Shown here piece after piece: positions 18,386 through 20,981 of a DNA stretch of 39,654 bases. The stretch spans positions 1-39,654 of the forward strand of contig DAOUTI010000003.1 in assembly GCA_030626795.1 (NCBI GenBank), read 5' to 3'. The position numbers were made by a program, and so were the translations under genes. Every line of letters starts with the position of its first letter. The stretch's first letter is position 1. The DNA is from Flavobacteriaceae bacterium. Its GTDB lineage: Bacteria > Bacteroidota > Bacteroidia > Flavobacteriales > Flavobacteriaceae. The notes beneath the pieces are model-generated. The model had not been told where the DNA came from. It did not search any database and worked only from the letters and a program-made list of their open reading frames with translations.

Positions 18386-18583
18386 ATGACAAAACTTCAA
18401 ATCACAACAATTGCACTAATAATTGCTTATTTTATTTGGGAATTATTTGTCTGGTTTTGGGCTAAAGGACAACCCGAAAGTGGTGGCGCTATTATTCGAG
18501 TAGATCTTATTATTATTTATCCTATCCTGTTGATATTAATAATGATATCTCTTTATCAATATTTTAAAAAAGAAAACCATTAA
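18386..18583 (+). CDS. Small two-helix membrane protein, unknown function
   Basis: A 65-residue protein with two hydrophobic helices (about 6-25 and 41-60) joined by a polar loop, WAKGQPESGGAIIRVD, and a basic tail. I do not recognise the family. It lies 12 bases before the Ivy-like lipoprotein gene and probably shares its transcript. No strong TAnnTTTG promoter was found just upstream. Small membrane proteins of this type in Bacteroidota often remain uncharacterised. Confidence 0.6.
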   Translation: MTKLQITTIALIIAYFIWELFVWFWAKGQPESGGAIIRVDLIIIYPILLILIMISLYQYFKKENH

Positions 18584-18594
18584 AGATCAATCCA

Positions 18595-19176
18595 TTGAAG
18601 AAATTAAAACTTATACCTTTTATTCTGGTCATTTTACTTTTTAGTTGTAATAACATTAAAAATGAAAAACTAACCACACCAATAGAAACAAAACAAGAAA
18701 TAGAAAAAGAAAAAGAAATTCAATCTAAAACAAACCCACAAATGGAAACAAACAGCAAAGCAAAACCTGATTCACTTTTTTTTAATGAATTAATAGGGAA
18801 ATATCCTACTCAAGTAAATTTATTTCAAAATGAAATTTTAACAAGCAGACTAAAGAATATCAATAGGTTCGATTATGATGCATTGATTGCAAATTGGAAT
18901 ACCGAAACTCCTATTACAATAGAAAATCAAATCATTCATTCTAGTGGATGTAAAGCGCATAACTGCCCCAGCAGTGGTTACGAACTTTTTATCGACTTAA
19001 AAAATGACAACATCAATATATATCATTTTAGAGGAAATACTTTAAGAGTTTATACCGAAAAAGATTGGATTGATTTACCCGCAAATTTTAATAATGAAAT
19101 AGAAACAAAAAAGTCAAACGCAAAAATTGGGAATACATCTGACGATATGGAGTCTACTTATAATGTTACATTATAG
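18595..19176 (+). CDS. Lipoprotein with an Ivy-like lysozyme-inhibitor loop
   Basis: A 193-residue lipoprotein starting at TTG: MKKLKLIPF..., with lipobox LFSC and Cys18. A low-complexity Glu/Lys/Thr linker (about 20-60) is followed by a compact domain (about 62-165). At residues 119-124 it has CKAHNC, followed by a strand pair YELFIDLKNDNINIYHF. In Ivy, the inhibitor of C-type lysozyme, the inhibitory loop is CKPHDC, closed by a disulfide and placed between similar strands, with the His entering the lysozyme active site. The spacing C-K-x-H-x-C is identical here. The assignment is by motif and layout, not by a database hit. The next gene also looks like a lysozyme inhibitor, which strengthens it. 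Anchoring by a lipid at the end of a flexible linker fits action in the periplasm or at the surface. Confidence 0.6.
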   Translation: MKKLKLIPFILVILLFSCNNIKNEKLTTPIETKQEIEKEKEIQSKTNPQMETNSKAKPDSLFFNELIGKYPTQVNLFQNEILTSRLKNINRFDYDALIANWNTETPITIENQIIHSSGCKAHNCPSSGYELFIDLKNDNINIYHFRGNTLRVYTEKDWIDLPANFNNEIETKKSNAKIGNTSDDMESTYNVTL

Positions 19177-19189
19177 AAATATTAAATTT

Positions 19190-19816
19190 ATGAAAAAACT
19201 ATTTTTAACTTTAATCGCAATCGCATTATTAATTTCATGCAATCAAAAAAAAGTTTCTAAAAAACAAGAAAATACAAAAACAGAAATAAAAACCGCTAAA
19301 GCAACTCCAGAAAGTAAAACCCCAGAAAGAGAGTATAAAACCAAAACTGGTAAATCATTTATTATCTCTGAAGTAAAACAAAGTGCTAGTATTAGTAAAA
19401 TAACGATAACTCCAAAAGGTTTTACAGCGGTAAATAGACCACTTGAAATGGAAGAAAGTGATCTCTTTGATTATGCGTTGGTTGCAGATGTTAATAAGGA
19501 TGGTTTTGAAGAATTATATATTATCACAAGAGGTACTGGTTCTGGATCTTATGCCCAGGTTTACGGTTTTGCATCTAACAAAGATAAAAGTGTGACCCCA
19601 ATTTATATTCCCAAATTATCTGATGATGATTTTGTTGCTTTATTCCAAGGATATATGGGACATGATAAATTTTATACAGAAGACAATAAATTATTAAGAA
19701 AATACCCTATTTACAATAAAGAAGATTCAAATAACAATCCAACAGGTGGGGATAAAATAATAGAATATGAATTAAAAGTGGGTGAATCTTCATGGGTTTT
19801 AAATATTAAAAAATAA
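19190..19816 (+). CDS. Lipoprotein resembling the PliI-type lysozyme inhibitor
   Basis: I use the ATG at 19190 rather than the track start at 19127. It gives MKKLFLTLIAIALLISC, a lipoprotein signal with Cys17, whereas the longer form buries the signal. After a Lys/Thr-rich linker comes a domain of about 150 residues. It contains ADVNKDGFEELYI, TGSGSYAQVYGF and later GYMGHDKF and NPTGGDKIIEY. The SGSY at residues 118-121 matches the SGxY motif described for PliI, the periplasmic inhibitor of I-type (invertebrate) lysozymes, and the surrounding DxNxDGxxE and GYMGHD segments recur in that family as I remember it. Function is inferred from motif. It follows the Ivy-like gene by 13 bases. Confidence 0.55.
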   Translation: MKKLFLTLIAIALLISCNQKKVSKKQENTKTEIKTAKATPESKTPEREYKTKTGKSFIISEVKQSASISKITITPKGFTAVNRPLEMEESDLFDYALVADVNKDGFEELYIITRGTGSGSYAQVYGFASNKDKSVTPIYIPKLSDDDFVALFQGYMGHDKFYTEDNKLLRKYPIYNKEDSNNNPTGGDKIIEYELKVGESSWVLNIKK

Positions 19817-20483: not shown

Positions 20484-20514
20484 AAACATCTTAAATATTT
20501 AAGATGTTTTTTTT
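20484..20514 (+). terminator. Palindromic intrinsic terminator
   Basis: AAACATCTTAAAT is followed immediately by its reverse complement ATTTAAGATGTTT, then a T run. It ends the transcript of the lysozyme-inhibitor/LpoB-like group. The symmetry lets it work only on the + strand here, because no T run follows on the other strand. Confidence 0.85.
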
Positions 20515-20542: not shown

Positions 20543-20981
20543 ATGAATAGATTTTTTTATATTCTATAAATTGATATTTCCTTACTATTTTTTAACTTTT
20601 AAAGGTTCATTATTTTTACACTTAGTCTTAAGTGCAATATTTGTTGTTGTTGTATTAGAGTACACCATTTTGCTTGCCACATTTTTTAAAACAACCATTG
20701 GCTGGACAGAAATTATAGCATTTTCAACCTATCCATTGTTTTTAGTTACTGGATACTCTTGGCCTGTTGAGGCCATGCCCAAATTATTACAAGGATTTGC
20801 AAATATTTTACCTTCTACTCCTTTTTATCGTGTTTTTAGTAAATTATCTATTGAAGGTGCTGGATTTAACCAAATTAAAAGTGAGTTTATACATTTATTG
20901 ATTTTACTACTTTTCGGATATATATTACTTTATATCAGATATCATTTTTTACATTCTAACAAAGTAAAAATAAAAGGTTAG
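20543..20981 (+). pseudogene. ABC-2 transporter permease, 3' remnant
   Basis: The open frame from 20547 (TTG at 20571 in the track) encodes only about the last 135 residues of an ABC-2 type permease. It contains LLATFFKTTIGWTEIIAFSTYPLFLVTGYSWPVEAMPKLLQGFANILPSTPFY, the typical last-third segment of YhhJ/drug-export permeases, followed by one more membrane helix. Full-length members are about 370 residues, and no ATPase or membrane-fusion partner lies beside it. An ATG at 20543 opens MNRFFYIL and then stops, which could be what remains of the original start after an internal deletion plus frameshift. The fragment is unlikely to form a transporter. Confidence 0.75.

Follow-up and report, generated by a model that had tools for sequence, protein, structure and literature searches.

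The lysozyme inhibitors described in the literature we found were characterised in Proteobacteria. Ivy depends on its CKPHDC loop for inhibition (PMC4262234), and control of lytic transglycosylases of bacteria has been reported for it as well (PMC3660660). XAC2610, PliI and Tsi1 have a propeller-like fold in common, in which a topologically equivalent loop blocks the active site of the enzyme (PMC10933484). A Flavobacterium psychrophilum gene has been listed with a C-type lysozyme inhibitor family domain (PMC9723704), and no description of a pair of such inhibitors in Bacteroidota was found in our literature search, which covered few subscription journals. Here, we describe a flavobacterial locus in which a putative Ivy-like lipoprotein, P1, is encoded next to a lipoprotein with a predicted PliI-type fold, P2, and we propose, at a probability of roughly 55%, that the two form an envelope-protection cassette against exogenous peptidoglycan hydrolases.

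The window, which is the whole stretch of DNA that was analysed (39,654 nucleotides), is contig C43 of genome G000, an assembly that is 84% complete in 240 contigs and has Flavobacteriaceae MAGs among its close relatives. The locus comprises the following features:

18386-18583, + strand: P0, an open reading frame of 65 aa with two apparent hydrophobic segments, which opens the gene run
18595-19176, + strand: P1, 193 aa with a TTG start, a putative Ivy-like lipoprotein with a CKAHNC loop
19190-19816, + strand: P2, 208 aa, a lipoprotein of the predicted PliI/XAC2610 superfamily with an SGSY loop
19869-20459, + strand: P3, an open reading frame for a secreted protein without family assignment, which closes the gene run
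20484-20514, + strand: predicted intrinsic terminator, an AT-rich hairpin of 11 bp with a T run on its 3′ side

The preliminary description of this DNA had reported two adjacent lipoproteins 13 bases apart, with CKAHNC in the first, SGSY in the second and charged linkers on both, and all of this is borne out. The lipoboxes are LLFSC in P1 and LLISC in P2, the stop codon of P1 and the ATG of P2 are separated by 13 nt, and both structure models contain low-confidence linkers. CKAHNC occupies residues 119-124 of P1 (18949-18966), whereas SGSY occupies residues 118-121 of P2, within TGSGSYAQVYGF (residues 116-127). The TTG start of P1 lines up with ATG or GTG start codons in its homologues. No hairpin is predicted in the gap between P2 and P3, and the hairpin 3′ of P3 has an MFE of -9.7 with a z-score of -5.9; it is not among the hits of a consensus terminator scan, which demands three G-C pairs. 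The run from P0 to P3 is a probable operon, presumably read as one transcript.

The flanking genes are less constant across relatives than P1 and P2. P0 agrees with the small two-helix membrane protein described upstream, as two apparent membrane segments can be read from its sequence; it has orthologues 5′ of P1 in L020 and L022, is missing from the open reading frame list of L019, and gave no family match in Pfam or NCBIfam. P3 has an apparent signal peptide and is kept behind P2 in L022 and in L023, the latter of which starts inside P2 and runs on to P3. The likeness of P3 to LpoB or CsgG that had been suggested gained no support: neither Pfam, NCBIfam nor a PDB profile search returned such similarity, or any other significant family or PDB match.

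The pairing, which the preliminary description had singled out, recurs in distant relatives. Four further MAGs (L019, L020, L021 and L022) have the P1-P2 pair, as the window does, and by gene order and homology it is a real, conserved cassette that occurs in more than one genomic context: in the window and in L019 it is preceded by sugar-transferase genes, in L020 and L021 by a phosphoglycerate kinase gene. P1 and P2 are directly adjacent in the window and in L021. A third lipoprotein, M, lies between them in the remaining three MAGs:

L019:4328-4981: M, P2-related lipoprotein
L020:4331-4975: M, P2-related lipoprotein
L022:4335-4982: M, P2-related lipoprotein

M is related to P2 by hhalign (96%, partly via the signal peptide) and blastp (E 1.5e-6), and carries CGxGGC at about the position of SGSY, so that it may possibly be a third inhibitor; no copy of M was found elsewhere in the 84% complete window genome. 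The cassette genes are under purifying selection, as judged from comparisons of the window with its relatives, in which dS is at least 1 and dN/dS about 0.14-0.2. Downstream of P3, the window retains a fragment of an ABC-2 permease, its C-terminal 136 aa (20571-20978, + strand), and a similar fragment follows P2 in L021. At that spot L019 retains TolC-type OEP, HlyD-like and ABC-2 genes and L020 has a truncated OEP; from this gene content, the cassette seems to have once adjoined an export operon, which several lineages then lost in part.

How closely does P2 resemble known inhibitors? We compared it with PliI (Pfam PF16743; PliI-Ah, 3od9/4pj2), XAC2610 (X-Tfi, 4qtq; NF047539) and CarG (4o7j). 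The SGxY motif arises in 2,811 of 50,000 shuffles of mature P2, and C[KR]xHxC in 4 of 200,000 shuffles of mature P1 (about 2e-5), so only the P1 motif is striking by itself. GSGSY, however, is nearly invariant in 15 P2 homologues. The earlier assignment of P2 to PliI stands at the level of the superfamily and not of the Pfam family: the Pfam model matches P2 itself below the cut-off (E 2.5e-4, 21.1 versus 27 bits), matches 14 of 15 P2 relatives (best E 2.4e-5), and is passed by a 337-aa BLAST relative of P2, L009 (BLAST E 5e-25; 29.8 versus 27 bits). The P2 family profile aligns with the strand and loop DLNGDKQPELIVVVESAGSGSY of PliI-Ah 3od9 (E 0.13). The AF2 model of P2 has a pLDDT of 79, exceeding 90 across much of the domain, and Foldseek matches it to PliI-Ah 3od9 with a probability of 1.00, to XAC2610 with 0.96 and to CarG with 0.95 (E 0.02-0.15); against 3od9_C the TM score is 0.60 at E 0.15. 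Because the Pfam matches in relatives, the profile alignment, the fold matches and the conservation of GSGSY agree, membership of P2 in the PliI/XAC2610/CarG superfamily of hydrolase inhibitors is well supported by sequence and model. PliI-like domains are also seen at the C-terminus of proteins of about 280-420 aa in other genomes of the family (L009-L014, L016 and L017).

P1 is a member of an unnamed lipoprotein family, found by profile mainly in Flavobacteriia. Homologues occur in 4 of 151 sampled genomes of the family and 21 of 348 of the order, chiefly in two genera besides the clade of the window; low-scoring matches of the P1 profile across the phylum, most of which span signal peptide and linker only, were discarded. 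The C, H and C positions of the C-x-x-H-x-C motif (C119, H122 and C124) are invariant in 25 members, among which GCKQHDC is the commonest loop, in place of the CKAHNC of the window copy. Members of the family also occur without a nearby P2, in L003 and two other genera. Direct HMM and PDB sequence matches of P1 (TRIM71 NHL repeats and signal-peptide matches) were rejected as weak or spurious, and PADLOC gave no match. A P1-like domain with CEQHNC forms the C-terminus of a 362-aa protein (L055:1408-2496, − strand) that has no Pfam match at E<=0.01. In the genus of L035-L038, a P1 homologue is divergently oriented from an adjoining D-Ala-D-Ala dipeptidase gene (Peptidase_M15, E 3e-33).

The comparison of P1 with Ivy relied on Pfam PF08816, E. 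coli ivy/ykfE (1gpq), P. aeruginosa PA3902 (4ps6), and Ivy sequences from plasmid records and E. coli. The Ivy HMM has no match in the window genome even at E<=10, and the families listed for the 25 members of the P1 family do not include Ivy. Profile comparisons were restricted to mature domains because signal peptides inflated the full-length hhalign, in which a P1 versus P2 control scored almost equally and which was discounted. In this comparison, the P1 family aligns with Ivy at 86.8% probability (E 4e-6). Against a set of 12 Ivy sequences the score is 38.7, which none of 150 full column shuffles reached (maximum 15.6); when the six motif columns were kept fixed and the rest shuffled, 1 of 150 reached the observed score, and 5 of 150 did so against three short Bacteroidota Ivys alone. 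The signal thus comes mostly from the motif, to which the flanks add a modest amount. In the AF2 model of P1 (pLDDT 64, better within the domain, from a six-sequence alignment) the loop sits between strands 113-117 and 128-134, and the flanking elements align in the order of Ivy. Foldseek places the Ivy structures 4ps6 and 1uuz at the top by target-normalised TM score (0.45) among the 50 matches listed, with alignments spanning 134-135 columns and an E value above 1 (1.4). True Ivys are present elsewhere in Bacteroidota, one of which (L069) has CKAHDC; most sub-threshold Ivy HMM matches in the phylum hold stop codons and were set aside. Taken together, the shared conserved loop, the order of elements and the profile and fold signals are suggestive, and P1 is probably a divergent Ivy-like protein; as the Ivy HMM does not match it and the motif is backed by only modest further evidence, P1 is not filed as a member of the Ivy family.

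How might such a pair protect the envelope? As exported and lipid-anchored proteins, P1 and P2 would be presented by their charged linkers in the periplasm or at the cell surface. From there, each would block an incoming peptidoglycan hydrolase, inserting an exposed loop into the active-site cleft of the enzyme: P1 the disulphide-closed CKxHxC loop, as in Ivy, and P2 the SGSY loop, as in PliI. A shared transcript for two unrelated folds would extend the spectrum of enzymes that can be inhibited. Candidate targets include animal or protist lysozymes of the c-type and i-type, or the lytic enzymes of rivals. A c-type target would not follow automatically for P1 even if the fold is right, since Ivy also acts on lytic transglycosylases, and the superfamily of P2 is compatible with more than one target class, because its members include both inhibitors of animal lysozymes and proteins that inhibit bacterial effectors.

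Other readings of the locus have to be weighed against protection from exogenous hydrolases. It is conceivable, though less likely than not, that only P2 is an inhibitor of known kind (PliI-like) and that P1 is an unrelated lipoprotein whose CxxHxC forms a structural disulphide or a ligand site. In favour of this, neither an HMM nor a statistically significant fold match connects P1 with Ivy, and the profile signal of P1 is centred on the motif; the rarity of that motif in shuffles, the Ivy order of the flanking elements and the single motif-keeping shuffle that reaches the score argue for a relationship nonetheless. That the lipoproteins act on endogenous enzymes instead of foreign ones, restraining lytic transglycosylases or muramidases of the cell itself, appears quite improbable. 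The reported action of Ivy on transglycosylases and the dipeptidase gene beside a P1 homologue are in line with such self-control of autolysis, but the patchy occurrence of P1 is unlike that of a housekeeping regulator.

The cassette might instead be an orphan immunity locus, in which P2 and M neutralise peptidoglycan-cutting effectors injected by rivals, in the manner of XAC2610 and Tsi1, with P1 as a second immunity protein; we regard this as unlikely. The match of the P2 model to XAC2610 extends over 203 columns and that to the smaller PliI over about 103, although the loop, SGSY, is of the PliI type, and the fold and loop use common to XAC2610, Tsi1 and PliI would permit either role. The stacked related lipoproteins of L019, L020 and L022 resemble immunity arrays, yet the open reading frame lists of the window and these three loci show no recognisable gene for an effector or hydrolase next to the cassette. 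P1 does match Imm53 at E 7e-4, but under the cut-off (19.7 versus 25 bits), and this assignment was rejected. TssB (PF05591) was not found in G000, G148 or G025, a search that divergent Bacteroidota systems might escape.

Tentatively, and short of an even chance, protection of the envelope from foreign enzymes may extend to a fuller proposal: P1 would be the founding member of a new family of flavobacterial lysozyme inhibitors, with a distant relationship to Ivy, and its gene, transcribed together with those for one or two inhibitors of the PliI fold, would belong to a cassette directed against a broad spectrum of muramidases. If true, a multi-inhibitor cassette in Bacteroidota would mean that the stacking of inhibitor classes is used beyond the animal pathogens studied so far, and an unnamed lipoprotein family of several flavobacterial genera would gain a name and a testable function.

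In comparison with known systems, P1 differs from Ivy in being a lipoprotein with a long linker, in falling outside PF08816, in the loop of its window copy, where N replaces the D of Ivy, and in lacking the conserved C-terminal part of proteobacterial Ivys. It resembles Ivy in its C-K-x-H-x-C loop between two strands, in a helical N-terminal half, in domain length and in being exported, and one Ivy from Paracoccus carries CKQHDC, the commonest type among P1 family loops. P2 differs from XAC2610 in that no adjacent effector gene is recognised and NF047539 matches insignificantly (E 0.06), whereas the Foldseek matches link it to XAC2610 and CarG, and XAC2610 is of similar size. From PliI it differs in being a lipoprotein with a domain of about 160 aa versus about 120, under the family cut-off in the window copy. 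With PliI it has in common a D-x-N/D-x-D-G-x-x-E strand followed by the SGSY loop, the fold match at full probability, and a direct relative, L009, that lies over the family cut-off.
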